In this document: one piece after another, positions 3,431 to 51,949 of the stretch
How the letters are laid out: each line of letters opens with the position of its first letter
How positions within the stretch are numbered: the stretch's first letter is position 1
From: Tribonema minus
Taxonomy: Eukaryota; Sar; Xanthophyceae; Tribonematales; Tribonemataceae
Reading direction: 5' to 3'
DNA length: 64,000 nucleotides
Assembly (NCBI GenBank): GCA_017506865.1
Contig: JAFCMP010000540.1
Location: 558,001 to 622,000, forward strand
Made by a program: the position numbers and the translations under genes
Notes under the pieces: generated by a model
Database searches by the model: none
The model's input: only the letters and a program-made list of their open reading frames with translations
What the model was told of the DNA's origin: nothing

Positions 3431-6400
3431 ATGCGGGCTCTGGGGGTGCTGCTGCTCCTGTTGCCCTTTGCGGCCAGCGCTGCTGCAGAGGCGGTATCGA
3501 ACCGCGAGCCGGCCACTACCTGGGACGCTGATCACGACCACAGGCAGCTGGCCGTCGTGCCGCAATGCATGTGCCCATGCACCTGCCCGCCAACTCCTTC
3601 TCCGACCCCTCAACCCACCACCCCGAAGGTAAGCACAGAATGAGAAGGGGTGGAGCGTAAGCATAGATTCACCGATGACACTTTAAACCGCGACGCATGT
3701 TGTACAACAGCTTTGCCAGCATCAAAGTACTGTTTGTGCTTGGACCTGAATGTGCTCGCAAGGTTGAGCAGCAGGCCCAGGCACGCAACAGCTGGCACTG
3801 CAGCAGTTGCTGCATGCGTAACAATGTCGAGTGGCGGGTGGGGCATGCCTGGATCAGGCATCATGGTTTAGGTTCTCTCTTCACAAGCCTAAATAACTGT
3901 TGTGTAAGTTCCACTCGCGTCTCATGTCCTCATTGTGGAATTTGTCGATGTGACCTCAACTTTGACTCTTCGCATGCGCCTGCCTCTCCTGCCCTGCCAC
4001 CTGCACTATAGCCTACTCCGGTTCCGATACATATATATAATAAAAGCTGACATCAACTGGCGCTGCAGCAATTGATAAAAGCTTTGGGTGACTGTTGCCA
4101 GCAAGCTGTACCGGTGATGTCCATTGAGAGCGGTATACCCATGGCGGGCAGTTACATTGCACATCACTCTTGTCCTCCCATTAAATCAGGCAATCATTTG
4201 CAGTTTGTTCATACCTACTGAGATCTGCAGTAGTGGTGCTTTAGTAGATGTGTACTGCTCGGTCATGAGCCCATCTTATCAAACCTGGATGAGCGTGATG
4301 TGATGTGTAAGTGCCACTCACATCTCATGTGCTCACTTTTACATTTGTTGAAGTGACATGCGATTGAGTCAACTTCAACTCTTCATAGCGCCTGCCTCTT
4401 ATGCCCTGATTAGTGTGTTTCTCAACTGCCGCTCACGTCTCATGTCCTCATGTTGGATTTTGTCAATGTGACCTCAACTCCAACTCTCACATGCGCCTGC
4501 CTCTCCTGCCCTGCCACTATCTACTGCAGCCCACGCCCACACCGACGCCCAAACCCACGCCCGTCCCGACGCCAAAGGTGCATTTTTTTTCCGGACACAC
4601 TTATCGTATAATTGATGCGAGCACCTAGTGAGGGACTGGAGTGTAGACACTTGAGTCGCCCATGGCACTTGAGCCCGCGACTCATGATGACCTTGCATCA
4701 ATGTTGCAAGCATCTATGCGCTTCTTAGTGGAGAGGTTGTGCCTACATGTACTGGCAAAGGTTATGCATGCCATAAAAGCTGACATCAACTGGCGCTGCA
4801 GCAATTGATAAGAGCTTTGGGTGACTGTTGCCAGCAAGCTTTACCGGTGATGTCCATTGAGAGCGGTGTACCCATGGCGGGCAGTTACATTGCACATCTC
4901 TCTTGTCCTCCCATTAAATCAGGCAATCATTTGCAGTTTGTTCATACCTACTGAGATCTGCAGAAGTGGTGCTTTAGTAGATGTGTACTGCTCGGTCATG
5001 AGCCCATCTTATCAAACCTGGATGAGCGTGATGTGATGTGTAAGTGCCACTCACATCTCATGTGCTCACTTTTACATTTGTTGAAGTGACATCCGATTGA
5101 GTCAACTTCAACTCTTCATAGCGCCTGCCTCTTATGCCCTGATTAGTGTGTTACGTAACTTCTGCTCACGTCTCATGTCCCTCATTTTGGAATTTGTCAA
5201 TGTGACCTCAACTCCAACTCTCACATGCGCCTGCCTCTCCTGCCCTGCCACTATCTACTGCAGCCCACACCCACACCGACGCCCAAACCCACGCCCGTCC
5301 CGACGCCAAAGGTGCATTTTTTTTCCGGAAACACTTATGGTATAATTGATGCGAGCACCTAGTGAGGGACTGGAGTGTAGACACTTGAGTCGCCCATGGC
5401 ACTTGAGCCCGCTTCTCATGATGACCTTGCATCAATGTTGCAAGCATCTATGCGCTTCTTAGTGGAGAGGTTGTGCCTACATGTACTGGCAAAGGTTATG
5501 CATGCCATAAAAGCTGACATCAACTGGCGCTGCAGCAATTGATAAGAGCTTTGGGTGACTGTTGCCAGCAAGCTGTACCGGTGATGTCCATTGAGAGCGG
5601 TATACCCATGGCGGGCAGTTACATTGCACATCACTCTTGTCCTCCCATGAAATCAGGCAATCATTTGCAGTTTGTTCATACCTACTGAGATGTGCAGTAG
5701 TGGTGCTTTAGTAGATGTGTACTGCTCGGTCATGAGCCCATCTTATCAAACCTGGATGAGCGTGATGTGATGTGTAAGTGCCACTCACATCTCATGTGCT
5801 CACATTTACATTTGTTGAAGTGACATTCGATTGAGTCAATTTCAACTCTTCATAGCGCCTGCCTCTTATGCCCTGATTAGTGTGTTTCTCAACTGCCGCT
5901 CACGTCTCATGTCCTCATGTTGGATTTTGTCAATGTGACCTCAACTCCAACTCTCACATGCGCCTGCCTCTCCTGCCCTGCCACTATCTACTGCAGCCCA
6001 CGCCCACACCGACGCCCAAACCCACGCCCGTCCCGACGCCAAAGGTGCATTTTTTTCCGGAAACACTTATGGTATAATTGATGCGAGCACCTAGTGAGGG
6101 ACTGGAGTGTAGACACTTGAGCCCGCGACTCATGATGACCTTGCATCAATGTTGCAAGCATCTATGCGCTTCTTAGTAGAGAGGTTGTGCCTACATGTAC
6201 TGGCAAAGGTTATGCATGCCATAAAAGCTGACATCAACTGGCGCTGCAGCAATTGATAAAAGCTTTGGGTGACTGTTGCCAGCAAGCTGTACCGGTGATG
6301 TCCATTGAGAGCGGTGTACCCATGGCGGGCAGTTACATTGCACATCACTCTTGTCCTCCCATTAAATCAGGCAATCATTTGCAGATTGTTGATACCTACT

Positions 6401-9400
6401 GAGATCTGCGGTAGTGGTGCTTTAGTAGATGTGTACTGCTCGGACATGAGCCCATATTATCAAACCTGCATGAGCGTGATGTGATGTGTAAGTGCCACTC
6501 ACATCTCATGTGCTCACTTTTACATTTGTTGAAGTGACATCCGATTGAGTCAACTTCAACTCTTCATAGCGCCTGCCTCTTATGCCCTGATTAGTGTGTT
6601 TCTCAACTGCCGCTCACGTCTCATGTCCTCATGTTGGATTTTGTCAATGTGACCTCAACTCCAACTCTCACATGCGCCTGCCTCTCCTGCCCTGCCACTA
6701 TCTACTGCAGCCCACGCCCACACCGACGCCCAAACCCACGCCCGTCCCGACGCCAAAGGTGCATTTTTTTCCCGGAAACACTTATGGTATAATTGATGCG
6801 AGCACCTAGTGAGGGACTGGAGTGTAGACACTTGAGTCGCCCATGGCACTTGAGCCCGCGGCTCATGATGACCTTGCATCAATGTTGCAAGCATCTATGC
6901 GCTTCTTAGTGGAGAGGTTGTGCCTACATGTACTGGCAAAGGTTATGCATGCCATAAAAGCTGACATCAACTGGCGCTGCAGCAATTGATAAAAGCTTTG
7001 GGTGACTGTTGCCACTAAGCTGTACCGGTGATGTCCATTGAGAGCGGTATACCCATGGCGGGCAGTTACATTGCACATCACTCTTGTCCTCCCATTAAAT
7101 CAGGCAATCATTTGCAGTTTGTTCATACCTACTGAGATCTGCGGTAGTGGTGCTTTAGTAGATGTGTACTGCTCGGACATGAGCCCATATTATCAAACCT
7201 GCATGAGCGTGATGTGATGTGTAAGTGCCACTCACATCTCATGTGCTCACTTTTACATTTGTTGAAGTGACATCCGATTGAGTCAACTTCAACTCTTCAT
7301 AGCGCCTGCCTCTTATGCCCTGATTAGTGTGTTTCTCAACTGCCGCTCACGTCTCATGTCCTCATGTTGGATTTTGTCAATGTGACCTCAACTCCAACTC
7401 TCACATGCGCCTGCCTCTCCTGCCCTGCCACTATCTACTGCAGCCCACGCCCACACCGACGCCCAAACCCACGCCCGTCCCGACGCCAGAGGTGCATTTT
7501 TTTTCCGGACACACTTATCGTATAATTGATGCGAGCACCTAGTGAGGGACTGGAGTGTAGACACTTGAGTCGCCCATGGCACTTGAGCCCGCGACTCATG
7601 ATGACCTTGCATCAATGTTGCAAGCATCTATGCGCTTCTTAGTGGAGAGGGTGTGCCTACATGTACTGGCAAAGGTTATGCATGCCATAAAAGCTGACAT
7701 CAACTGGCGCTGCAGCAATTGATGAAAGCTTTGGGTGACTGTTGCCAGCAAGCTGTACCGGTGATGTCCATTGAGAGCGGTGTACCCATGGCGGGCAGTT
7801 ACATTGCACATCACTCTTGTCCTCCCATTAAATCAGGCAATCATTTGCAGTTTGTTCATACCTACTGAGATGTGCAGTAGTGGTGCTTTAGTAGATGTGT
7901 ACTGCTCGGTCATGAGCCCATCTTATCAAACCTGGATGAGCGTGATGTGATGTGTAAGTGCCACTCACATCTCATGTGCTCACTTTTACATTTGTTGAAG
8001 TGACATCCGATTGAGTCAACTTCAACTCTTCATAGCGCCTGCCTCTTATGCCCTGATTAGTGTGTTTCTCAACTGCCGCTCACGTCTCATGTCCTCATGT
8101 TGGATTTTGTCAATGTGACCTCAACTCCAACTCTCACATGCGCCTGCCTCTCCTGCCCTGCCACTATCTACTGCAGCCCACGCCCACACCGACGCCCAAA
8201 CCCACGCCCGTCCCGACGCCAAAGGTGCATTCTTTTTCCGGAAACACTTATCGTATAATTGATGCGAGCACCTAGTGAGGGACTGGAGTGTAGACACTTG
8301 AGTCGCCCATGGCACTTGAGCCCGCGACTCATGATGACCTTGCATCAATGTTGCAAGCATCTATGCGCTTCTTAGTGGAGAGGTTGTGCCTACATGTACT
8401 GGCAAAGGTTATGCATGCCATAAAAGCTGACATCAACTGGCGCTGCAGCAATTGATAAAAGCTTTGGGTGACTGTTGCCAGCAAGCTGTACCGGTGATGT
8501 CCATTGAGAGCGGTATACCCATGGCGGGCAGTTACATTGCATATCACTCTTGTCCTCCCATTAAATCAGGCAATCATTTGCAGTTTGTTCATACCTACTG
8601 AGATCTGCAGTAGTGGTGCTTTAGTAGATGTGTACTGCTCGGTCATGAGCCCATCTTATCAAACCTGGATGAGCGTGATGTGATGTGTAAGTGCCACTCA
8701 CATCTCATGTGCTCACTTTTACATTTGTTGAAGTGACATGCGATTGAGTCAACTTCAACTCTTCATAGCGCCTGCCTCTTATGCCCTGATTAGTGTGTTT
8801 CTCAACTGCCGCTCACGTCTCATGTCCTCATGTTGGATTTTGTCAATGTGACCTCAACTCCAACTCTCACATGCGCCTGCCTCTCCTGCCCTGCCACTAT
8901 CTACTGCAGCCCACGCCCACACCGACGCCCAAACCCACGCCCGTCCCGACGCCAAAGGTGCATTCTTTTTCCGGAAACACTTATCGTATAATTGATGCGA
9001 GCACCTAGTGAGGGACTGGAGTGTAGACACTTGAGTCGCCCATGGCACTTGAGCCCGCGACTCATGATGACCTTGCATCAATGTTGCAAGCATCTATGCG
9101 CTTCTTAGTGGAGAGGTTGTGCCTACATGTACTGGCAAAGGTTATGCATGCCATAAAAGCTGACATCAACTGGCGCTGCAGCAATTGATAAAAGCTTTGG
9201 GTGACTGTTGCCAGCAAGCTGTACCGGTGATGTCCATTGAGAGCGGTATACCCATGGCGGGCAGTTACATTGCACATCACTCTTGTCCTCCCATTAAATC
9301 AGGCAATCATTTGCAGTTTGTTCATACCTACTGAGATCTGCAGTAGTGGTGCTTTAGTAGATGTGTACTGCTCGGTCATGAGCCCATCTTATCAAACCTG

Positions 9401-12400
9401 GATGAGCGTGATGTGATGTGTAAGTGCCACTCACATCTCATGTGCTCACTTTTACATTTGTTGAAGTGACATCCGATTGAGTCAACTTCAACTCTTCATA
9501 GCGCCTGCCTCTTATGCCCTGATTAGTGTGTTTCTCAACTGCCGCTCACGTCTCATGTCCTCATGTTGGATTTTGTCAATGTGACCTCAACTCCAACTCT
9601 CACATGCGCCTGCCTCTCCTGCCCTGCCACTATCTACTGCAGCCCACGCCCACACCGACGCCCAAACCCACGCCCGTCCCGACGCCAAAGGTGCATTTTT
9701 TTCCCGGAAACACTTATCGTATAATTGATGCGAGCACCTAGTGAGGGACTGGAGTGTAGACACTTGAGTCGCCCGTGGCACTTGAGCCCGCGACTCATGA
9801 TGACCTTGCATCAATGTTGCAAGCATCTATGCGCTTCTTAGTGGAGAGGTTGTGCCTACATGTACTGGCAAAGGTTATGCATGCCATAAAAGCTGACATC
9901 AACTGGCGCTGCAGCAATTGATAAAAGCTTTGGGTGACTGTTGCCAGCAAGCTGTACCGGTGATGTCCATTGAGAGCGGTGTACCCATGGCGGGCAGTTA
10001 CATTGCACATCACTCTTGTCCTCCCATTAAATCAGGCAATCATTTGCAGTTTGTTCATACCTACTGAGATGTGCAGTAGTGGTGCTTTAGTAGATGTGTA
10101 CTGCTCGGTCATGAGCCCATCTTATCAAACCTGGATGAGCGTGATGTGATGTGTAAGTGCCACTCACATCTCATGTGCTCACTTTTACATTTGTTGAAGT
10201 GACATCCGATTGAGTCAACTTCAACTCTTCATAGCGCCTGCCTCTTACGCCCTGATTAGTGTGTTTCTCAACTGCCGCTCACGTCTCATGTCCTCATGTT
10301 GGATTTTGTCAATGTGACCTCAACTCCAACTCTCACATGCGCCTGCCTCTCCTGCCCTGCCACTATCTACTGCAGCCCACGCCCACACCGACGCCCAAAC
10401 CCACGCCCGTCCCGACGCCAAAGGTGCATTTTTTTCCCGGAAACACTTATCGTATAATTGATGCGAGCACCTAGTGAGGGACTGGAGTGTAGACACTTGA
10501 GTCGCCCATGGCACTTGAGCCCGCGACTCATGATGACCTTGCATCAATGTTGCAAGCATCTATGCGCTTCTTAGTGGAGAGGTTGTGCCTACATGTACTG
10601 GCAAAGGTTATGCATGCCATAAAAGCTGACATCAACTGGCGCTGCAGCAATTGATAAAAGCTTTGGGTGACTGTTGCCAGCAAGATGTCCATTGAGAGCG
10701 GTGTACCCATGGCGGGCAGTTACATTGCACATCACTCTTGTCCTCCCATTACATCAGGCAATCATTTGCAGTTTGTTCATACCTACTGAGATGTGCAGTA
10801 GTGGTGCTTTAGTAGATGTGTACTGCTCGGTCATGAGCCCATCTTATCAAACCTGGATGAGCGTGATGTGATGTGTAAGTGCCACTCACATCTCATGTGC
10901 TCACTTTTACATTTGTTGAAGTGACATCCGATTGAGTCAACTTCAACTCTTCATAGCGCCTGCCTCTTATGCCCTGATTAGTGTGTTTCTCAACTGCCGC
11001 TCACGTCTCATGTCCTCATGTTGGATTTTGTCAATGTGACCTCAACTCCAACTCTCACATGCGCCTGCCTCTCCTGTTCTGCCACTATCTACTGCAGCCC
11101 ACGCCCACACCGACGCCCAAACCCACGCCCGTCCCGACGCCAAAGGTGCATTTTTTTTCCAGAAACACTTATCGTATAATTGATGCGAGCACCTAGTGAG
11201 GGACTGGAGTGTAGACACTTGAGTCGCCCATGGCACTTGAGCCCGCGACTCATTATGACCTTGCATCAATGTTGCAAGCATCTATGCGCTTCTTAGTGGA
11301 GAGGTTGTGCCTACATGTACTGGCAAAGGTTATGCATGCCATAAAAGCTGACATCAACTGGCGCTGCAGCAATTGATAAAAGCTTTGGGTGACTGTTGCC
11401 AGCAAGCTGTACCGGTGATGTCCATTGAGAGCGGTGTACCCATGGCGGGCAGTTACATTGCACATCACTCTTGTCCTCCCATGAAATCAGGCAATCATTT
11501 GCAGTTTGTTCATACCTACTGAGATCTGCAGTAGTGGTGCTTTAGTAGATGTGTACTGCTCGGTCATGAGCCCATCTTATCAAACCTGGATGAGCGTGAT
11601 GTGATGTGTAAGTGCCACTCACATCTCATGTGCTCACTTTTACATTTGTTGAAGTGACATCCGATTGAGTCAACTTCAACTCTTCATAGCGCCTGCCTCT
11701 TATGCCCTGATTAGTGTGTATCTCAACTGCCGCTCACGTCTCATGTCCTCATGTTGGATTTTGTCAATGTGACCTCAACTCCAACTCTCACATGCGCCTG
11801 CCTCTCCTGCCCTGCCACTATCTACTGCAGCCCACGCCCACACCGACGCCCGAACCCACGCCCGTCCCGACGCCAAAGGTGCATTTTTTTTCCGGAAACA
11901 CTTATTGTATAATTGCAAGCACCTAGTGAGGGACTGGAGTGTAGACACTTGAGTCGCCCATGGCACTTGAGCCCGCGACTCATGACCTTGCATCAATGTT
12001 GCAAGCATCTATGCGCTTCTTAGTGGAGAGGTTGTGCCTACATGTACTGGCAAAGATTATGCATGCCATAAAAGCTGACATCAACTGGCGCTGCAGCAAT
12101 TGATAAGAGCTTTGGGTGACTGTTGCCAGCAAGCTGTACCGGTGATGTCCATTGAGAGCGGTACACCCATGGCGGGCAGTTACGTTGCACATAACTCTTG
12201 TCCTCCCATTAAATCAGGCAATCATTTGCAGTTTGTTCATACCTACTGAGATGTGCAGTAGTGGTGCTTTAGTAGATGTGTACCGCACGGTCATGAGCCC
12301 ATCTTATCAAACCTGGATTGGCGTGTAGTGATGTGTAGGTGCCACTTACATTTCATGTGCTCACTTTTACATTTGTTGAAGTAACATCAACTTCAACTCT

Positions 12401-14630
12401 TCATAGCGCCTGCCTCTTATGCCCTGATTAGTGTGTTGCGTAACTTCTGCTCACGTTCCATGTTCCTTACGTTCCATGTTCCTCATTTTGGAATTTGTTG
12501 AAGTGATCTCAACTCCCAACTCACAACATGCGCCTGCCTCTCCTGCCCTGTCACTTTTACATCAGCCGACCCCGACGCCCACAACGCCTAGGCCTACTCT
12601 CAAGGTACTTGTGTTGTTTGTTGAACTTTGCTAAAAAATCTGATGCGAGCACTGAGCGAGGGTGGGGTGTACACATTGAGTCAGTCGACAATGACTGCAT
12701 GCGTGATGCATGATTTCTGCATCAACCTTGCAATCATCGTAGTGCTGTTTTGCTCAGATAGGCTGGAACTGAATGTGCTTGCAACGGCTCAGCATGAGGC
12801 ACACAACCGCTGGCACTACAGCAGTTGCTGCAGGCGCAACAACTTCAAGTCAAGAGGCTGTCAGGGCTTGGGGCAAATGTAGAAATAGTTGCCAAGAGGC
12901 TGCAGCGGTGTTGTGCATTTGGCCAGCACGTATGCCCGATAATGTTGAGGTTCGCTCTTTGCACCAGTGATCCTTGACAGCTTTTGTTGCCACCCGTTGA
13001 GATCTGCAGTAGTGACTCGTCCGCTCTCATGCTCTGATTCACCTTGACTGCACGACCAGCCTATCTTGCTTAGCTTGTGTGCATGCCATTATGGGGGTCT
13101 GAGTGCCTGAAGCGTGTCTACCTTCCACTCGCGCCATGCGTGCTCGCTGTGAATGCTCGCACAATTGTTACCTAACCTTCAACTCTCCGCATTCGCACCC
13201 TCCTACCAACCCTGCAGCCCACCCCCCAACCGACAACACCTAAGCCCACACAAGGGTGCACAAACGGCGTGGTAAGTATGATAAGCATGCATGTGTAGTC
13301 TGTCTTTGACATCATGTCAATGTGTCGACGTAGGAAAATGCACTTGAGCTGACAAGACTGCGGTGGCGTGACACAGTGGCTGACATTGTGGGTATGATTC
13401 TTGAGCAAAAGCACCATGCTTCTGGCGTGCATTTGCGGCAAAGCTCGTCCAGCACTGCGTTGAATCGCAGTGTGTGGTTACAAATAAACCTGCGACGGCA
13501 CTGTGACGTGAGAGAGGTTTTGAATGAAGCACACCACCTTCGTGTAGTTTGCTGCGATGGTCACCACAGTTACAGCGACACTGTTCAATCATTCACAATG
13601 GCGCATGTAACTGTCATCATCAATGTGGCCGTCGACCCTGTAAACACAGTGGAGATGGCCAGTTAGGGTTAGGGTTAGGTCTTTAACGCTAATGGCTGCC
13701 ACCCTCTATGCCGCGCCTACATCGCATGCTGCAGTGTTGCATTCACAGCAGCCTGAGCGCCGTTACACTAGTAAGGTTCAACAAGGGTTAAGCAGAAGCA
13801 GGTTTAGGGCTGGCTTCCAACTCCACAATAGCACAGATATTTCAATGTGCATGGCAGCTCACAACTGCAGTGCTGCAGCAAGACAGTGCTCAACTGTCAG
13901 TGTGTGCGCATGGCGCTGCCGCTCATGCAGAGGGGGGCCCTGCCAAAGGGCAGCCCCGCCCCTCACTGCCACCCCCCTCTCCTTCCCTGGCGTTGCTCCC
14001 TGCCTAGAGATCGTGCGCAAGCTCACAGACTCACACCATGTCTCGACTGCGCCAGGTCACAACATGATTCCGCCAGCAGTGTTGTGATGTTTTTGCGCAG
14101 GTGCGGCAAGTTGAAGTGCTGCAAGGGCCTACATTTCCATATGCTCACACTCCACGGATGCCGGTTGATGCCATCATGGCGCTCACCCCCCCCACCCCCG
14201 ACCCCCCCCTGTCACCTCCTGTCAGTTTTGCACGGTCATCCTCAGGGGCAACCCCTTCCCCGGCACGTGCTTCATACCGGGCCAGCAACCCACCGGCCAG
14301 AACCTGCTCGACGCAGGCGTCGGCACCTGCATCAACACCCCCGCCTGCCCGCAGCGCTGCTTCATCCCCAACGACAGCCAGGGGCTCTGCGGCACCAACA
14401 CGTGCTCCGGCGGCGAGATCTGCCGCTGCTACAACAAGGTGCTCGGCGTCATGGGCGCGTCGTGCAAGCAGGCGGACCTCGTGGACGTCGCGCCGGGTGC
14501 CATCGTCAGCAATGGCGGCGGCTGCGCTGAGAACGCCTGCAACGCCGCCACCAACATCCAGGGCACCGCCGCAGGCTGCTGCCCTACGAGCTGCTCGCGC
14601 CGCACGTTCGCCGATCTCTTCCTGAAATAA
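3431..14630 (+). CDS. Secreted Cys-rich protein with exon-encoded Pro/Thr-repeat linker
   Basis: Predicted exons, all phase 0: 3431-3628, 4530-4577, 5264-5311, 5997-6044, 6711-6758, 7444-7491, 8177-8224, 8910-8957, 9643-9690, 10376-10423, 11098-11145, 11831-11878, 12566-12604, 13218-13271 and 14226-14630, giving about 407 residues. Exon 1 starts MRALGVLLLLLPFAASAAA, a clear signal peptide, and ends in CMCPCTCPPTPSPTPQPTTPK. Each 48-nt exon encodes PTPTPTPKPTPVPTPK, with Lys to Glu in the units at 7444 and 11831. The next two exons encode PTPTPTTPRPTLK and PTPQPTTPKPTQGCTNGV. The last exon is a Cys-rich domain with 15 Cys, ending FADLFLK. Acceptors read ctactgcag and donors read AAAG|gtgcat. 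The likely product is an extracellular or cell-wall protein with an extended, probably O-glycosylated linker; I do not recognise the Cys domain. The phase match across all exons is strong evidence; actual inclusion of each unit is unproven. Confidence 0.8.
4012..4059 (+). pseudogene. Decayed copy of the PT-linker exon
   Basis: An acceptor-like ctatag is followed by PTPVPI coding sequence, which then runs into ATATATATAA and the ataaaagctgacatc segment. The second half of the exon, its donor and most of the following intron are missing. Read through, the frame stops within a few codons. It is probably skipped. If used with its acceptor it would end the protein before the Cys-rich domain. Confidence 0.6.
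4040..12604 (+). repeat. Tandem array of about 733-bp exon-plus-intron units
   Basis: Eleven units each carry one 48-nt coding exon. Exon starts are spaced 734, 733, 714, 733, 733, 733, 733, 733, 722 and 733 bp, followed by one degenerate unit. The 714 unit has lost about 18 nt (around 6120) between two copies of cttga. The 722 unit has lost 11 nt (ctgtaccggtg, near 10685). Units are almost identical in intron as well as exon, which implies recent expansion or ongoing homogenisation. The degenerate outer copies (3903-4040, 12340-12604 and 13110-13271) share the same gtgatgtgtaagtgccactc-like and cgcctgcctctcctgccctg-like blocks. Confidence 0.95.
13664..13681 (+). repeat. Interstitial telomere-like TTAGGG repeat in an intron
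   Basis: About three uninterrupted GGGTTA hexamers lie in the last intron of the PT-linker gene, downstream of an otherwise featureless stretch (13272-14225). They show the hexamer form TTAGGG, not the plant TTTAGGG or the Chlamydomonas TTTTAGGG. Confidence 0.8.
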
Positions 14631-33200: not shown

Positions 33201-36200
33201 CGCTGCTGCCACCTTGGTACAAAGCAGTGGCTTACAACACCATCTTACCTGTCCACCATCACTCTGCGCCACGGTAACCAGCAGCATGAGAAGCTGCATC
33301 GTTTCGCACAGACACGCTTCGAGAGGTCCCATGCAGACGCTACACAAGAACGCTGCGCTGACAGCCAAACTACGCCAGCATTTGATTCGGACTCCAATGG
33401 TCACGCCGCCCCCATCAGCACGGTGGTGACAGACAAAGTGTGTGTAAAGCTGTTCGCGCGGTGGACTTGGCTCAGCTGCGGCACATGCGTCACGCGGGCG
33501 CGCGAGACTGCGGCGGGCGCTGCAAAGGCGCATGCAGTGGTCGCGAGCATGCTGAGCGGTGACACAATGCTGCGCATCACGGCAGCGCCAAACGCCTACT
33601 GCGGCAACATTGTGAGGAGTTTACTTGCGCTGTCTGATAGTGGCGTTACGACAATGACTCAGATCGAGACTTTTGAGTATGTCAGATCAATTGAATACTA
33701 GCGTCACCTTCAAGTTGAGACTCGTGCTTCACTGAATGGTTTTGAGTAAGCAGAGTATCAGCGCACTAGTGTCCTCATGGTCTTTGACGGCCATCGAACT
33801 GCGCTGCCGATGGACCGACGTCAGTTCACATGTGGTACACTTCAAGTATGCCGCGAGTACAGTTCAGATGTGCACTTCACCTGCATAGCGCCTGCACCCT
33901 GCGCCAGCATGTCCCCCTGCTGAGCCCCGGCTACCCCCCCCTGCAACGACCCCATCCCCATCGGAAATTGCGCCTGGCCAAAGTCCATCTGCGCCACGAG
34001 GTGCTGCTGCTGCGCCGCCTGCAAAACAAGAGATTCATCACAGCAATGTGTTGAGGGCAGTCCATGTGGTTGTGATTTTGTGCTGTAGTGTTAATGCTTG
34101 ACTGTTAAAGAGCCGCGCTCTTCTGAAAGCATCAAGTCAACACCGCTACGTTGGTAAGCTTGTCTTGTCTTGTCTGTGCATGTTGATACTTCAACTTCCG
34201 TCAGAAGTGCTCACAGCGCGTTAAAGAGCTCCATTCTTTCAACAATCAGGGTGAGACAAGCGTGTGATCGAGCGTACAGCTCTTTGCTTGCCCTAGTGCA
34301 GCACGCTTCCATAACCCGACGTTGTAGTGGCGCCAGTCAGTATCGTCACCAGACTTCAAGATACGAGTTCAGCATGGATGGTTCATGACGCCATCTTGTC
34401 ACGTAGCCATTTCGTGCAGCACATGCCTCTGCTCGGAATCAAGAGGTGCTCACATCTATTACTAAGCAAAGCGCGCCTCTAGCCACCTAGTCCGTGGGTG
34501 CAAGCACCACCAATACCCAAAGCTACATACAACTCGACTCATCAAGCTTCTACCTTGTCAGTTGGGGCAGTGCCTGCTGCAAGTGTAGAAGCGGTGCCAT
34601 AGCAAGACACTGTGCCCAAAACCACCTTCAAGAGGTGCGCCTGGCACCAAGTTCGTCAAAATGTGCATCCTGAAGGGAATGAATCACCTGCAAGTCCAGC
34701 TGACTGCGCTGCTGCTCCATCAAGTGCGCCTCCAGCTGCTGCGACGCGCCCCCCTGCTGCCCGGAAGCCAGCGGCGGACGCAGCGGCTCCTGCATGCTGC
34801 GCTGCAGCTCCACGCTCTGCGCCATTTGTTGCTGCAGCGTCGTGAAGCGGGCGGAGGGGAGGGCGCACTGATGGTCAGCGTCATCGACGCGCTGAGCGGC
34901 AGCGTCTGCGACACGCTGAGCATCATCTGTGTGCTGAGCACGGTCGGCGTGCTGAGCATCGGCGCGCTGAGCATCACCTACATGCCGCTGAGCATCACCT
35001 GCGTGCTGCTTAGCATCAGTAACCTGCCACTGAGCATCACACACATGCTGAGAACCATCAGCACGCATGCTGCGCGTCGTCAGCATGCTGGGCGTCATCA
35101 GCAGCATTCGCGGCTGGCGTATCGCGTGGACAGTAGCGCGATGCAACCCTCAGTGGACTGCTGGCTCACGGAGAAGTGACTCTCACACAGCTGGACACAG
35201 TGCGCTTTCCCTGCTGCGCTCGGCACACTGCGTGGGCCCCCGAGGTGAAGCAGGATCTGGTGATGGTGGACTCACACACATATGCATGGGCAGCGGTACA
35301 CCGTCTGCCGGCAGTTGCAGGTGGCTTCTCGTGCTCTAGAGTCTATCGAGGCAATGTGTGTCGCTGATGCAACCACAGCTGCTGAACTCCAAACTCATGA
35401 TGGGTTTAGATAGCGATATCTGCACCGCATGCGCCGCTGCAAAGAGTAGAGAGTTCACAACTACGCCGGCACCGCACTCAACTCCTCTCTCCCCCCCCCC
35501 CCCCTGCACTACACTCAACCCCCACCCGACGCACACGCGCCCGAAACACCCCATCGCGGCCGCCAGCCCCCGCTCGCGCTCTGCTCTCCGCATGCGGCGC
35601 TCCGCCCGCACGATCGCCCGCGCTCACCTGCTGCTGCAGCTGCGCCTGCATGTGCTGCTGCTGCTGCGCCATGAGCGCCTGCGTGTGCGCGTCCAGCTGC
35701 TGCTGCGCCTCCGCCTTCACGCCGCCGCCCGCCTGCGCCGCGCGCTCTGCCGCCGCCGCCTCCGCCTGCGCGCGCGCCTCGGCCTGCTGCTCCTCATACG
35801 ACGCTTTGACTTTATCCAGCACCTCCTGCGTGATGCCGCCGCCGGAGCCCTTCGGGTTCTCCTTGAGCCACTTCTTCTGCGCGCTCGAGTTGAAGCGGTT
35901 CTTGACGGCGTTCTCCGTGCGCCCCGGCAGCAGCTTGGCGATCTCGCACCAGCGGTTGCCGAGGCGCAGCTGCGCCTCGAACACGACCGTGTCCTCCTCG
36001 GGCGTCCACGGCGAGCGCTTGATCGCGGGGTCGAGGTGGTTGAACCAGCGCTCGCGGCACTGCTTGCCGATGCGCCCGGGGAGCTTGGCGGCGACGGCGG
36101 ACCACTTGACCTTGGCGATGCCCACCGCCTCGACGCTCTCGCGCACGACGCGGTCCTCCGTCTCCGTCCACGGCCCCTTGTGCAGCCCCGGCCGCAGCAC

Positions 36201-37073
36201 CTTGTTCCAGCGGTGCAGGCACTGCATGTCCGTGCGCGCGCCGCCGACGTCCTCCGCGATGGCGCGCCAGCTGCGCGGGCCGTGCCTGTCGACGGCGTCA
36301 CGCAGGCGCGCGTCCTCGTCCGGCGCCCACGTGCCCATCGCCGCCGCCGCCATCGCCGCCGTCGCCGAGCGCAGCACCGGCATGCCCTGCCCGTCCATGC
36401 CCTGCAGGTCCTGCTCCGAACCCCAGCCCCCGCCCATGCCGCCGCCGCCGCTGCAGGTGCTGCCCATGGAGGCGAGGGAGGAGACGCTGGCGCTACGCGT
36501 CATGCCTCCGCCGCCGCCGCCCAAGCTTGCTGCACCGAAACCTGCAAACGCTGGCGTGAGTGAGCTGGATGAGGTGTTGTCGGCGACGGAGGACGGCGGC
36601 GGCATCAAGCTCGCTTCATCGCAGTGGTTGCTGTTAGTCAGCGCCGACCCTCTGGGTGCCCCTGTGCTGCCCCCCATCGCAGTGCCCGCCTGCTCGTGAG
36701 CCATGGCCTGATCGAGTATGCTGGACATGCCCGCACTGGCCAGATCATGATCATTGACGGAGCTAGAGGTGCTCGACCACGGCTGTGACAAGCTTTTGAT
36801 CGAGGTGGGAGAAGGCCGGCTGTCCCTCCTCTTGTGGCCCGGCCTGCCCCCCCCCCCGACGGCTGAGGACAACGAGCCATTGCCAGCGAAGCCAGATTCA
36901 GCGTCCAGAGGCGTCGAGCGCCTCGGCTCTGCATGCGGGCTCGTCACTGCGCATCTCTTCTCTGGTGCGCGGCGTGGGGAGGGCAGCGTGATGTCAAGGC
37001 CCACAGAGGAGCTGGGCTCGGCACTGACCATTCCTTCACGAGGAGACGCCTCATTGCTCATTGCAGCATCCAT
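28991..37073 (-). CDS. Three-repeat MYB (MYB3R) transcription factor with very long Gln-rich tail
   Basis: Exons: 37073-35628, 34867-34688, 34018-33881, 32870-32019 and 31540-28991. All junctions are phase 0 with cag acceptors and CAG|gt donors, giving about 1721 residues. MYB repeat R1 (about 247-293), R2 (298-349) and R3 (350-399) carry the expected Trp spacing; R2-R3 read [27 protein letters not shown] and [27 protein letters not shown], typical of animal c-MYB and plant MYB3R regulators of cell-cycle genes. Residues from about 410 to the end are dominated by poly-Gln, with Ala/Pro/Met and one block of [10 protein letters not shown] repeats. The protein should be nuclear; the Gln-rich part is probably a transactivation or condensate-forming region (inference). 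The length is more than double that of usual MYB3R proteins. The start ATG at 37073 is the first in frame, but an upstream exon is possible. Confidence 0.88.
32160..32365 (-). repeat. In-frame [10 protein letters not shown] coding repeats
   Basis: Six consecutive units of about 33-39 nt within MYB exon 4 encode variants of [11 protein letters not shown] ([10 protein letters not shown] in one). Units differ mainly by synonymous changes and by small variation in the linker residues between them. Confidence 0.9.
34868..35105 (-). repeat. Minisatellite upstream of MYB exon 2 acceptor
   Basis: On the minus strand, gatgctcagc-type units recur about every 12-25 bases and run straight into the acceptor gctgaccatcag of exon 34867-34688. 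The acceptor itself looks like a member of the repeat family. Confidence 0.75.
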
Positions 37074-39407: not shown

Positions 39408-42400
39408 TCACTGCGTCGCCACCGCGGCCGTCTTGGGCTTCGCCTTGGGCTTCGCCTGCGGCTTGTCGGTGGCGCCCCCCGCTGCCCCCTTGCCCTGCGC
39501 CTTCGCCTTCGCGGGCGTCTTCGGCTTGGTCTGCGCCGCCTTGGGCGCGGCGGCGGCGGCCACTTTTGCGGCGGGCGCGGCGTCCGCTCCTGAGCGCTGC
39601 CTCGCTTTGAACGCGCCGGGCGTCTCCACGGCGTCCGCCGCCCACATGCCGCGCCGCCGCGCCTTGGCCTGCGTCTCGAGGGCGCGCATCTGAGGGGGGG
39701 GGGGGGGGCGGGGGGGGGGGGGAGGGGGACTTTGCACTGTGTATACTTGTCGATTCTCGCTCAGGGCGCGGAAAAACCCAGATGGTGGACGTCCAGCTGC
39801 AGCCAGATTCTACAGCTGTGTACTTTAGCAGTTCACATTTTTTTACGACAGTTTCTAGTAACCATCGAGCGGCCAACGCGCTGTCGGCGATGGTGACAGG
39901 TGGTCTGAAGCTTGCACACTTCGTGCAAGACCTGTCCTCATCATATGCAGGTTGTGGGTCATGTCAAGTCTACCATGAGAGCGCTGCGTGCACAAGGCTG
40001 GATTAGAAAACTCAAGATTTGCGAGCTTCTGTATACATCGGTGGCGTTGCGGAGTTTGCACTATCACGATGCTCAATGTGATACTCTGACACCCCAGAGG
40101 GGGAGGCTACTAACATGCTAAGTGTGCACAAGCTTTTCAGCTCAGTGGCAATCAAGCTAGGGCCACCGCAGCTGGGGCAGCAGCGCACTCTCCGAATCAT
40201 GCGGTGTCTCTGGTGAACGTGCGTGACCTCGCATGAAGGGTTGGCGTGTTCATGTACTCCAAAGCGTATACTTCTCTAAGTACTTTGAGTGAGTACACAT
40301 GCATGCAGAGCGCGTGGTGTGCCCAGGCACCGGCTTCATCATCTGAAACGCCTCGCCCTCCTCAGTGCTTCAGGCCCACACGCTAGAGCAGCACAGCGCG
40401 CGCGCACATGCCACCTGTTAAACACAACGGAGCGCTGCTGCAACTCCCGCAGCAGCAGCGAGCAGCCCTCGCGCACCTGCGACAGGCGCCCGTTGTGCTC
40501 CGCGCCGCCGCCCGTGTACACGACGCCGTAGCCGCGCCGCAGGATCTCCATTGTGAGGTCCTTGCTGCGCAGGGGGCCGGAGCTATATTGGACGCTGCCG
40601 ACGATGCGCTGGTACTGCGGGGGGGGGGGGGGGGGGGGGGGGGGAGGGTTAGGTTGTTGCTGCGCAGGGGGCCGGAGCCGTACTGGACGCTGCCGACGAT
40701 GCGCTGGTACTGTAGGGGGGGGGAGAAAGGAGGGGGCGGGGGGGGGGGGGGGTAGGGTGAGGTCCTTGCTGCGCAGGGGGCCGGAGCTGTATTGGACGCT
40801 GCCGACGATGCGCTGGTACTTGGTACTTGGGGGGCGGGGGGGGGGGGGGGGTTGGGGGGGGGCGGGGGCAGCGGGCACTGAGCCAATGGCACGCGTGTGG
40901 GCTCCCGATGTGTGCATGAGGTCGTTGACGCTGGCACCACACAGCGAGCGTAGCACATGACATGGTCGCTGACGATGGCTTGGTGCGGCGCCAGGCAGTG
41001 AGCCAATGGCGCGCATGTGGGCTCTCGACATGCGTATGGACTCGTTGGCGCTGGCGCAGCACAGCGAGCGTGGCGCATGATGTGGGCGCCGACGATGTCG
41101 CGCTGGTGTTGCGCGGACACGTGGAGCCGCCGGGAGCAGTGAGCCAACGGCGCGCATCCTGCTTTAGAGTTGTGGTACCCTGCTTTTGTCAAAGAAGCGC
41201 ATGCGCACCTCCATGGTGTACTAGAACTAGTCTAGAAGCATGCCCCGCTTGGCCACCCCCTCATCGTCACCCCAAAGCTGTAAACATGCAGCTGCCTGAC
41301 TGGACTACAACATGCGCTGGACTAGCTTTGTGGCCGTGGCAGCGTCATTACCTGGTCCCGGCGCAGCAGCTGAATCTTCACTTTCTTGCCCAGGACCTCG
41401 CTCTTGACAAAGTCGGTCGCCTCCTTGGCCATGGGCTGGCCAGGCTTGCCAAACTTCGCCGTCTGCAATTACGCCAGTGACGTACGACGCAAGTCAGGCG
41501 CAATGAGCAAACGCGGTCTCAGCATGTGAGCATCGATAGATGCTGACTGAAGAATGTGACCTTTGCCATCTGCGACTGCGCCAGTGACGCACGGCATGGT
41601 CAAGCGCAATGAGTGATGCGGTCTTAGCGTGTTGGCTATTGATTAATGCTGACTGAAGGATAAGAAACAAGCATGGATGTGGTAATCCATACGGAGCTTG
41701 GCGATAAGGTCGTTCACAAAGCAGGGCAATGTGACAGCGGGTGACATGCGCCCAGAATAAAATGATCGCTGTTGTTGAAGTTGCGCTCTCTCAATTTAGG
41801 CTGGGTGTGGCTGGCGAACAAAGCAGCTTGCTGACGCATGGATGCTCTTTTGACGGAACGCACGCCGAAGCAGCACATGCTGCCAACACTTAAGCGCCAT
41901 TGCCATCTTGATGGCATGGCTGCCCCCTGTGCGGCATGCTTCTAGCGCTGACCCTAGCCCTAATCCTAAAACCTAACCCTAACGGTAACCCGCCAGTTGC
42001 ACCTTCAGGCTGCAGATCAGGGGCAACGCTCTGCCCGTCTTAAATGCAATCAGAGGTGCCGCTGCAGCACTGCAAAGTCTCCTGGAGAGTTGCCGTTGGT
42101 GATACTTGCAGTATTGCAACCAAGACCACCCCCCCTTTGCTGCTGTTCCCCATCGCGTGCATCACTCTCACGTCAATCCAGCTATACTTACGGTATCGCG
42201 CACGTACCTCGGGCGTGTCCACGCCGTACAGTCGCACTGCAATGGCGGTCTCGGACAGCTTCCCCTTGGCGCTGCCCCTCCTCAGGAACGAGAGGGCGGG
42301 CTCGTGCCGCACCCTGATGGTGTCCCCGTCCGTCACGCTGCATACGTACGTACATGCATGCAAAACATATATATATGGCAACGAATCAAAAGATCGTAGA

Positions 42401-50215: not shown

Positions 50216-51949
50216 TCACCGGCAAATGATGACGCAACCGCGCACATTGAACCTTGTGCAGCGCGTGCCTGTGATGTCGACGTGCTGCAGCGCCGGCAGG
50301 TGACTTATGCTGTCCGGCAGCGCAGTGAGGGCCTCACAGTCGTGGACGACGAGTCTCCGCAGCGCCGCCAGCCGGCCGATGCCTTCCGGCAGAGCTGTGA
50401 GCCCGCTGCAATATTCGATATTAAGCTCCTCCAACGCCACCAGCTGGCCTATGCTTTCCGGCAGCGCGGTGAGCCCCCCGCACAGGGAAATACCAAGCGT
50501 CTTCAGCGCCGCCAGCTGGCTGATGCTGTCCGGCAGTGTGGTGAGCGATACCCCCTGGATGACAAGATCATTCAATGTCGCCGTCTCGCCGATGCTTTCC
50601 GGTAGCGCAGTGAGCCCCTCGCAGTCATAGACTTTTAGCGTCCTCAGCGCCGCCAGCTGGCCGATGCTGTCCGGCAGCGCGGTGAGCCCCTGGCACTCAT
50701 CTACTTTGAGCGTCCTCAGCGCCGCCAGCTGGCCAATGCTTTCCGGCAGAGCTGTGAGCCCGCTGCAATTTTCGATATTAAGCCCCTCCAACGCCGCCAG
50801 CTGGCCGATGCCTTCCGGCAGCACTGTGAGAGCCTCGCATTCATTGACTGCGAGCGTCTTCAGCGCCGCCAGCTGGACGATGCTGTCTGGCAGCGCAGTG
50901 AGGGAATCACAACATCCGACTTCAAGCGTTACTAGTGCCGCCAGCTGGCCGATGCTGTCCGGCAGCACGGTGACCCCCCCGCTCCGGTAAATATCAAGTG
51001 TCTCCAGCGCCGTCAGCTGCCCGATGCTGTCCGGCAGTACGGTGAGCCCATTGCAAAACACTTGGAGTGTCCGCAGCGCCGCCAGCTGGCCGATGCTCTC
51101 CGGCAGCGCAGTGAGGGTCTCGGTCTCGCAGCTGACTTTGAGCATCCGCAGCGCCGCCAGCTGGCCTATGCTTTCCGGCAGAGCTGTGAGCCCGTTGCAA
51201 TGTTCGATAAAAAGCACCTCCAACGCCGCCAGCTGGCCAATGCTTTCCGGCAGCGCAGTGAGGGCGCATATCTTGACTGTGAGCATCTGCAGCGTTGCCA
51301 GCTGGCCTATGCTTTCCGGCAGCGCAGTGCGGGTGACTGTGAGCGTCTGCAGCGCCGCCAGCTGGCCTATGCTTTCCGGCAGAGCTGTGAGCCCGTTGCA
51401 ATCTTCGATATTAAGCACCTCCAACGCCGCCAGCTGGCCTATGCTTTCCAGCAGCGCAGTGAGGGCGCATGTCTCGACTTTGAGCGTCCGCAGCGCCGCC
51501 AGCTGGCCTATGCTTTCCGGCAGAGCTGTGAGCCCGTTGCGATGTTCGATATTAAGCACATCCAACGCCGCCAGCTGGCCTATGCTTTCCGGCAGAGCTG
51601 TGAAGGAACACCCTCTGACTTTAAGCGTCTTTAGCGCCGCCAGCTGGCCTATGCTGTCCGGAATTGATTCAAGCAGATGTGTGTCGTCGTCCGCGAAGGA
51701 GCCAGACAACGCGAGACTGGTGACCTGTTTCACGGCCACAATGCGAGCTGCCACTTCTGCTGGGGGTTCCAGAAGTTTCAAGGTCAATCTGACCCGGTTT
51801 CTTGTCCTCAGAGCTTGACACAGTCCCCAGGCGGATTTGCACAGCATGTGCTGTTCGTCCAGGATGCACAACGCTTCTAGAACGATGTTGTCGGCGCCCT
51901 CCGTTTTCCTTGAAGCCTTATTGCTGTGCCTTTCTGGAGCCGTCGTCAT
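50216..51949 (-). CDS. Leucine-rich repeat protein, 20 near-identical repeats
   Basis: A single uninterrupted frame of 577 residues from ATG 51949. The first 100 residues are non-repeat (MTTAPERHSNKASRK, then a helical region). They are followed by 20 repeats of about 23-24 residues of the form TALPESIGQLAALRTLKV plus a variable tail (xxCxGL). This is the plant-disease-resistance-like or SDS22-like LRR style with LPxSIGxL, seen in intracellular LRR proteins. One repeat near the middle is shortened (ends LTVTR). There is no nucleotide-binding, kinase, ROCO or membrane domain, so the partner is unknown. The lack of introns and extreme repeat similarity at DNA level stand out from the neighbours and suggest frequent unequal exchange among units or recent retrocopy origin. 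Confidence 0.9.
   Translation of the reverse strand: MTTAPERHSNKASRKTEGADNIVLEALCILDEQHMLCKSAWGLCQALRTRNRVRLTLKLLEPPAEVAARIVAVKQVTSLALSGSFADDDTHLLESIPDSIGQLAALKTLKVRGCSFTALPESIGQLAALDVLNIEHRNGLTALPESIGQLAALRTLKVETCALTALLESIGQLAALEVLNIEDCNGLTALPESIGQLAALQTLTVTRTALPESIGQLATLQMLTVKICALTALPESIGQLAALEVLFIEHCNGLTALPESIGQLAALRMLKVSCETETLTALPESIGQLAALRTLQVFCNGLTVLPDSIGQLTALETLDIYRSGGVTVLPDSIGQLAALVTLEVGCCDSLTALPDSIVQLAALKTLAVNECEALTVLPEGIGQLAALEGLNIENCSGLTALPESIGQLAALRTLKVDECQGLTALPDSIGQLAALRTLKVYDCEGLTALPESIGETATLNDLVIQGVSLTTLPDSISQLAALKTLGISLCGGLTALPESIGQLVALEELNIEYCSGLTALPEGIGRLAALRRLVVHDCEALTALPDSISHLPALQHVDITGTRCTRFNVRGCVIICR

Follow-up and report, generated by a model that had tools for sequence, protein, structure and literature searches.

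The stretch of Tribonema minus DNA that we analyzed (64,000 nt, hereafter the window) contains a predicted gene of 15 exons at positions 3431-14630 (Table 1). Joined together, these exons read through as a single frame of 407 codons, uninterrupted by stops. Judging from its translation, the gene probably encodes a secreted protein, in which a signal-like peptide is followed by a long Pro/Thr/Lys stalk and then by a Cys-rich domain. Exon 1 has a mean hydropathy of 2.69 across residues 4-14 and ends at the donor GTAAGC. The stalk is a PT/K linker with glycine at 2 of its 221 residues. Intron 1 also contains a relic of a PT exon, which (read by eye from 4012) gives PTPVPIHIYNKS and then a stop. 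The sequence just upstream of this relic (3898-4000) is 87% identical to the 3' end of the array intron, and the intron before the 54-nt PT exon is homologous to intron 1 (72% identity over 155 columns).

Table 1. Predicted exons and the relic exon of the gene, in window coordinates.
Feature	Position	Strand	Description
Exon 1	3431..3628	+	66 aa; hydrophobic signal-like N-terminus, CMCPCTC motif, start of PT linker; open frame, phase-0 end
Relic PT exon (intron 1)	4012..4039	+	Acceptor kept, donor lost; fused to middle of array intron
Array exon 1	4530..4577	+	PTPTPTPKPTPVPTPK
Array exon 2	5264..5311	+	One synonymous change
Array exon 3	5997..6044	+	48 nt, phase 0
Array exon 4	6711..6758	+	48 nt, phase 0
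Array exon 5	7444..7491	+	K16E
Array exon 6	8177..8224	+	48 nt, phase 0
Array exon 7	8910..8957	+	48 nt, phase 0
Array exon 8	9643..9690	+	48 nt, phase 0
Array exon 9	10376..10423	+	48 nt, phase 0
Array exon 10	11098..11145	+	48 nt, phase 0
Array exon 11	11831..11878	+	K8E; most diverged unit of the array
Older PT exon, 39 nt	12566..12604	+	PTPTPTTPRPTLK, phase 0
Older PT exon, 54 nt	13218..13271	+	PTPQPTTPKPTQGCTNGV, phase 0
Terminal exon	14226..14630	+	Cys-rich domain, 134 aa and stop

The array is made of eleven units of 714-735 bp, each with one 48-nt exon in phase 0 that is preceded by AG and followed by GT (11/11). The 56-nt cores around these exons match at up to 3 mismatches in all eleven units; a chance repeat is ruled out, as the maximum in 100 dinucleotide-preserving shuffles was 0. 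Units 1-10 are 97.0-99.7% identical to each other (99.7% between units 6 and 7), and unit 11 is 92.7-94.1% identical to the others. Nine of the 11 exons encode PTPTPTPKPTPVPTPK, and units 5 and 11 each have a K-to-E change. A first-pass annotation of this sequence had placed eleven 48-nt, phase-0 exons in near-identical units between a signal-peptide exon and a Cys-rich exon, and exon 1 and the Cys-rich exon are as it described, although it missed the two further PT exons of 39 and 54 nt. It had also stated that every unit adds the same 16 residues; the number and the frame are right, but the residues differ in the two units with glutamate. Its main proposal, that the linker grew through tandem copying of an entire unit of exon plus intron, is supported by the frame and by the identities of the units.

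Alignment of the units shows no gap columns in the exons versus 9 runs of gaps in the introns. Because the difference in variable sites is not significant (3/48 in exons versus 71/638 in introns; Fisher p = 0.47) and two of the three changes in the exons are non-synonymous, the array exons cannot be said to be under constraint. Six variants (columns 626-679) are common to the edge units 1 and 11 and absent from units 2-10, which is as expected if the inner units were homogenized by unequal exchange. Mean identity declines with the distance between units, from 98.59% at lag 1 to 97.82% at lag 9, but unevenly (98.51% at lag 4). The array intron is not a dispersed element: all 13 matches to its sequence are on the same contig (C537) and within this array. 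No Rfam RNA elements were found in the window at the gathering score. Several unrelated short tandem duplications are also present in the window.

We are nearly certain that an array of some size is present, but not that it has exactly 11 units. The count comes from a single assembly, in which no second haplotype was found, and a pair of units that are 99.7% identical could mean that the number is an artefact of assembly, with a shorter array expanded or a longer one collapsed. We consider this quite unlikely, as the units differ from each other by substitutions, by indels, and in length. Also, the array was found at this one place only, in the interior of a 642,775-bp contig, and there are paralogs with comparable repeated units of different ages.

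The array donor is GTGCAT in all 11 units, with A at +5. We called 84 exons automatically, and among the donors of the 72 that lie outside the window (some of which are mis-called exon ends), 60 have G at +5 and 15 score below AAG/GTGCAT, so the array donor is under the family average. The splice sites had been described as consensus, which overstates the donor, since it lacks the +5 G found in most of the family. Because internal GTC codons cut the automatic calls short, we took only the letters of the donor from these calls; the phases and lengths reported below are from separate strict calls.

These weak donors raise the question of whether the array is spliced in at all. It might be an intronic satellite whose exons are skipped, with exon 1 joined to the 39- or 54-nt exons or straight to the Cys-rich exon. 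Skipping would cost nothing because all of the exons are in phase 0, and joining exon 1 to the Cys-rich exon also preserves the frame. Nevertheless, the eleven copies all retain AG, GT, and the frame, with no gap columns in their exons, and the donor has been lost in the relic exon right beside the array. The PT exons of the paralogs share this layout, and most of them have donors with +5 G. An intronic satellite therefore seems unlikely to us, and we predict that the exons are spliced as in Table 1.

The first-pass annotation had suggested a search for homologs of the Cys-rich domain, which yielded both paralogs in this genome and homologs elsewhere, including in Klebsormidium. The genome contains at least 11 further copies of the Cys-rich exon, some of them damaged: nine are whole domains (one of which has a stop) and two are split. 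In all 10 of the family copies that we examined, the acceptor lies 3 bases ahead of the first conserved Cys codon. The copy in the window retains all 14 of the cysteines that are invariant among the other eight aligned copies (the alignment omits L015, which has the stop, and the two split copies).

The Cys-rich exon of this gene has dN/dS ratios of 0.71 (to its closest paralog), 0.75, and 0.95 against three copies. Ratios are 0.03-0.15 among three copies on C56 and 0.27 for one more pair, but low values are seen in close pairs only, and two other distant copies give 0.57. The ratio of 0.71 would be consistent with a decaying pseudogene, as would the stop in another member of the family and our not finding a deposited model for this locus. 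However, the frame is unbroken for 407 codons across 15 exons, the 14 conserved cysteines are all present, and the array was amplified recently with its splice dinucleotides intact in all 11 units. We think it very unlikely that the gene is a pseudogene.

We did not find a deposited protein for this locus, but one of our searches also missed P0006, a deposited T. minus model for a paralog that the profile search described below did find, so the absence of a model is not established. In P0006 (170 amino acids), the junction between residues 30 and 31 falls exactly on the predicted donor and acceptor of that paralog's last intron. Its first two residues aside, P0006 spans only the last two exons that we found for that paralog, which suggests that the stalk can escape ordinary gene prediction. 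We also note that nothing else in the genome is clearly related to exon 1 (the next best match has E = 0.025) and that the PT-bearing first exon of the paralog on C103 has no obvious signal peptide. The case for secretion across the family therefore relies on exon 1 of this gene.

Beyond this genome, the domain matches the family of a Klebsormidium nitens protein (KFL_001220120, here P0003) by its pattern of conserved cysteines (14 invariant columns across 8 sequences) and by its GGGCxEN.CNA...CCP core. P0003 has all 14 of the cysteines that are invariant in six rows from this genome. At E ≤ 0.001, a profile search found 13 proteins, two of which (P0003 and P0004) had been part of the query alignment; a single-sequence search gave 64 candidates, none of them at E ≤ 0.01. 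Neither the Cys-rich domain nor a truncated form of the protein matched any Pfam family at E ≤ 10, and a sequence search of the PDB gave a single match, to a short defensin (E = 0.14). An AlphaFold2 model of the domain from 9 sequences had a mean pLDDT of 68.9, and its Foldseek matches were not significant (best E = 5.2).

The exon design of the array recurs in the paralogs. We examined 11 paralog loci, including L049 (on C511), which was counted despite a weak Cys match (E = 0.0025), and L043, which holds two copies of the gene; L048 (on C57), in which no PT island was seen, does not enter the exon counts. Although the donor search assumed no phase, the best donor was in phase 0 at 78 of 83 PT islands, and AG immediately precedes the first PT at 69 of the 83. 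Among 65 strictly called PT exons, which are partly copies of one another and so are not independent, 64 are in phase 0. Their lengths (39-648 nt) are multiples of 12 nt, the length of a PTxx repeat, in 46 cases, 12n+3 in 15 cases, and other in 4 cases. Six of the 11 loci contain tandem exon-plus-intron units, which are 66-99.7% identical. In one close paralog, a stalk of comparable length is instead encoded by repeats of 12 nt within a single exon.

The design also extends outside the family. A pattern for PT exons matched 334 places in the genome, compared to none for the reversed control. At two places on contigs that are not in our list of Cys-domain matches, the best donor is in phase 0 at 7/8 and 10/11 islands, and a multi-exon unit of 2,914 nt is repeated at 88% identity over 2,515 columns. 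None of the 17 pattern matches on viral contigs were confirmed. A search of the assembly did not turn up a RuBisCO small subunit. Of two antenna proteins that we compared with the PDB, one was closest to the LHCI chains of a single entry and next to ACP/CAC types, and the other was closest to FCP types, which argued against a green alga as the source.

We propose that this gene encodes a collagen-like modular stalk, built from phase-0 exons, whose length has grown by unequal crossing-over between introns; we consider this explanation probable. The stalk would be put together from symmetric phase-0 exons whose borders are in register with the amino-acid repeat, and exon-plus-intron units could therefore be gained or lost without damage to the frame. 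The long, near-identical introns would supply the homology for unequal crossing-over, which may have recently taken one 733-bp unit to eleven copies of 16 residues each. The paralogs and the other PT-stalk genes of this genome would then reflect repeated action of the same process. The stalk is probably extended and glycosylated, and its length may matter for function.

As for function, the array might instead be a tolerated, neutral by-product of the ease with which short segments are duplicated in this genome, with symmetric PT exons simply being the sites at which duplications persist and stalk length having no tuned role. The other short tandem duplications in the window and the lack of detectable constraint on the array exons relative to the introns fit with this idea. 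On the other hand, the phase-0 design in the PTxx register is found again in many places, and exon ends are in frame even where the identity between units is down to 66%. Together, these observations point to selection on the frame, though not on the length. We view a neutral origin as a real possibility but would not bet on it. It concerns function and is compatible with the anatomy of the modular stalk that we propose.

Collagen exons are old, and the introns of collagen genes are not known to be near-identical tandem units. Fibrillar collagens (COL1A1, COL2A1, and others) are described as having short, whole-codon exons of complete Gly-X-Y repeats, most commonly of 54 bp, so that the skipping or loss of an exon preserves both the frame and the register of the repeat (PMC9320522). 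Similarly, the algal PT exons are often whole PTxx repeats, and the array exons are 48 nt. The algal gene differs in that it is from a stramenopile, its sequence is unrelated, it has no Gly-X-Y triple helix, and the sizes of PT exons are far more variable. Another comparable system is KIV-2 of LPA, where near-identical tandem units of exons plus introns in the gene for a secreted protein change its length in frame (PMC11201333). As reported there, each KIV-2 unit measures about 5.6 kb, has two exons, and encodes a folded domain, and the number of copies varies among people, up to 40 per allele. The algal units are likewise near-identical and each in frame, with copy number changing only the predicted length of the protein, but the unit is about 733 bp, its one 48-nt exon encodes linker, and the count is from one assembly.

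Two other systems are also similar. Leucine-rich-repeat genes of Tetrahymena are reported to have constant-phase arrays of 1 to 51 exons of exactly 90 bp, attributed to unequal crossing-over (PMC6564038). The algal exons also form a constant-phase array in a gene for a repeat protein. However, the introns of the ciliate arrays, which occur in thousands of genes, are in phase 2 and the exons encode a leucine-rich repeat (PMC6564038), while the algal introns are in phase 0 and the 48-nt exons encode a Pro/Thr linker. The PEVK region of titin, which is a muscle protein, is a proline-rich, spring-like region of many small exons that expands and contracts by exon duplication and loss; an 11-fold array of a near-identical single exon is not described in the portion of that source on which we draw (PMC6469411).

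If our explanation is correct, then this gene is a young and readable case of a repeat protein that grows by whole exon-plus-intron units instead of by slippage within an exon. Paralogs in the same genome show older stages, and one shows the alternative, in-exon route. The mode of protein lengthening that is known from collagen and LPA thus becomes testable in an alga. We did not find an earlier description of this gene or its exon design in an alga in one open-access library, which we searched without the species name. More speculatively, PTxx-locked phase-0 exons, gained and lost with their introns by unequal crossing-over, might provide adjustable extracellular stalks across this genome, with reach set by copy number among strains and by optional inclusion of weak-donor exons among cells. 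This would be a collagen-type exon plan that arose independently in stramenopiles and is still expanding, which we regard as possible, though less likely than not.

As for the architecture of the homologs, the same Cys-rich domain is C-terminal in P0003 and in the metagenomic proteins P0012 and P0014. Unlike the product of the gene described here, none of the three has a PTxx stalk, and P0003 (217 amino acids) has no long linker; in P0012 and P0014, the domain lies behind proline-rich linkers.

In the window (C537:558001-622000), the 48-nt exon and its splice borders recur in eleven copies in this one assembly, and not by chance; every copy is in phase 0 with AG before and GT after. Joined in order, exon 1, the array exons, two small exons of 39 and 54 nt, and the terminal Cys-rich exon give a 407-codon frame with no internal stops. 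The eleven phase-0 exons of the first-pass annotation are borne out. The exons it listed stand, but it missed the two small exons that follow the array and, ahead of the array, a relic: a remnant of a Pro/Thr (PT) exon, lying in intron 1, that retains its acceptor and lacks a donor. It had also described the splice sites as consensus. That holds for AG and GT (11/11), but the donor, GTGCAT, is weaker than typical family donors: 15 of 72 called donors score below AAG|GTGCAT, and 60 of 72 have G at +5. A weak array donor would fit optional inclusion of the array exons. The predicted stalk has 105 Pro, 69 Thr, and 23 Lys within 221 residues.

Units 1-10 are 97.0-99.7% identical to each other; their identity to unit 11 is 92.7-94.1%. 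Six variants near the 3' end of the intron (columns 626-679) are common to units 1 and 11 and absent from units 2-10. Among units 1-10, mean identity starts at 98.59% for lag 1 and declines unevenly (98.51% for lag 4), reaching 97.82% for lag 9. This pattern fits the one model that we considered, in which unequal exchange would turn over the inner units and the units at the edges would lag behind. There were earlier rounds of duplication as well, as intron 1 is homologous to the intron after the 39-nt exon (72% over 155 columns; single-base shuffling of intron 1 gave no match in 100 trials), its 3' part shares 87% identity with the 3' part of the array intron, and the latter intron holds an internal repeat (112 columns, 70%).

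Variable sites did not differ significantly between array exons and introns, either in all units (3/48 vs. 71/638; Fisher p = 0.47) or in units 1-10 (2/48 vs. 41/655; p = 0.76). The exons have no gap columns and the introns have nine gap runs, but the array is too young for this to prove constraint on the exons. The Cys-rich exon is constrained between close copies, with a dN/dS of 0.03-0.15 among three copies on contig C56 and 0.27 for another pair. The window gene gives 0.71 with its closest paralog and 0.75 and 0.95 with two more distant copies; two other distant copies give 0.57.

Elsewhere in the genome, the Cys-rich exon has nine other complete copies (a stop interrupts one of them), two split copies, and three weak partial matches. 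All 10 copies examined have the acceptor of this exon three bases ahead of the first Cys codon, and the window copy keeps all 14 Cys that are invariant among 8 paralogs. A search of the assembly with exon 1 found no clear relative (next best E 0.025). We fetched 12 loci and one extension and analysed 11 loci, leaving out one without a PT island, and sought donors without assuming a phase. AG directly precedes the first PT in 69 of the 83 PT islands, and 78 have their best donor in phase 0. Of 65 strictly bounded PT exons, which are partly copies of one another and hence non-independent, 64 are in phase 0 and 46 consist of whole PTxx repeats, with lengths in multiples of 12 nt. Exon-plus-intron units are repeated in 6 of the 11 loci (see table). 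The closest paralog, L038, has 73% identity in the Cys-rich domain.

Features of the window gene, its paralogs, and the rest of the window
Feature	Location	Strand	Details
Array exons	window 4530-11878	+	eleven copies
Relic exon	window 4012
Repeated unit	L040		70% identity
Repeated unit	L041		99.7% over 600 nt; another 66%
Repeated unit	L042		66-74%
Repeated unit	L047		70%
Repeated unit	L049		69-71%
Repeated unit	L044 with L050		96.2% over 849 columns; older ones too
Same 33-mer beside L041	C56:8592, 10040, 11488		spaced 1,448 bases; also elsewhere on C56
Stalk of closest paralog	L038:6426-7073 (C103)		single 648-nt exon of 12-nt PTAN/PTAK repeats, not multiplied exons
Family copy, L015	C56:48938-49318	-	in-frame stop in the Cys-rich domain; probably a pseudogene
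P0006 31-170	L013
P0007 105-234	L019/L045
P0009 34-104	L020/L042
LRR reading frame	window 50216-51949	-	577 aa; LRR_14, E 1.1e-81; nested tandem repeats of 72, 141, 201, 216, 357 bp, among others
Myb DNA-binding stretches	window 35478-37073	-	three, in one reading frame
Tandem copies	window 40553-41097		109 and 120 bp
Tandem copies	window 54699-55125		about three of 155 bp; GTGAGA motif in first two

Three deposited T. minus proteins (P0006, P0007, and P0009) match the Cys-rich domain, and in their main stretches they show 98.5-100% identity with loci on C56. Residues 30 and 31 of P0006 are joined at the predicted donor and acceptor of its gene's last intron (L041: 5089 to 5795); P0006 lacks the gene's other stalk exons, and its first two residues are unmatched at the locus. 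At L020/L042 and L019/L045, the Cys domain is split over frames in both copies, and P0009 and P0007 join or replace the parts differently. Protein searches turned up no database entry for the window gene, but one search also missed P0006, so such an entry may exist.

The homologue search that the first-pass annotation had suggested returned, besides the paralogs, more distant relatives: proteins from metagenomes and one from Klebsormidium nitens. In two of the metagenome proteins the domain follows a proline-rich linker. The Klebsormidium protein has all 14 Cys that are invariant in the six aligned rows from the T. minus genome. No Pfam model matches the Cys-rich domain, and no PDB structure significantly matches its predicted fold (mean pLDDT 68.9).

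Across the genome, 334 places on many contigs match a pattern of GCAG and then PTxxPTxxPT (136 forward and 198 reverse, a count that takes in the exons of the window gene and some internal repeats); the reversed control has none. Among the matches listed, some places are outside the Cys-domain family. We read two, both on contigs outside the Cys-domain match list. C99 has AG adjacent at 8/8 islands and the donor in phase 0 at 7/8; it also carries a repeated multi-exon unit of 2,914 bases (88% over 2,515 columns). C13 has AG adjacent at 11/11 islands and the donor in phase 0 at 10/11; those ten exons are multiples of 12.

The anatomy, its recurrence, and the relative ages of the duplications are directly visible. 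We propose that symmetric exons ending at amino-acid repeat borders would make each exon-plus-intron unit a self-contained cassette, and that long near-identical introns would supply homology for unequal crossing-over. If so, every exchange would gain or lose whole cassettes with the frame safe. Once spliced, the putative product would be a secreted Cys-rich domain borne on a PT stalk, perhaps glycosylated, that would lengthen or shorten in steps of 16 residues; any function is likewise presumed. A signal-like peptide is apparent only in the window gene; the PT-bearing first exon of the C103 paralog has no obvious one.

In how it works, the design resembles fibrillar collagen exons (PMC9320522), the LPA KIV-2 repeat (PMC11201333), the Tetrahymena arrays of 90-bp LRR exons (PMC6564038), and titin PEVK (PMC6469411). 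As far as tested, the window gene shares no domain or repeat sequence with any of them. What is new is the lineage, the single 48-nt linker exon, a family whose repeated units vary widely in age, and the two contrasting routes by which the stalks of close paralogs have grown.

Elsewhere in the window, the minus strand of 40553-41097 repeats an exon-like segment, QYQRIVGSVQYSSGPLRSKDLT, whose copies are preceded by C-rich tracts ending in CAG. This is possibly another duplicated exon or acceptor.
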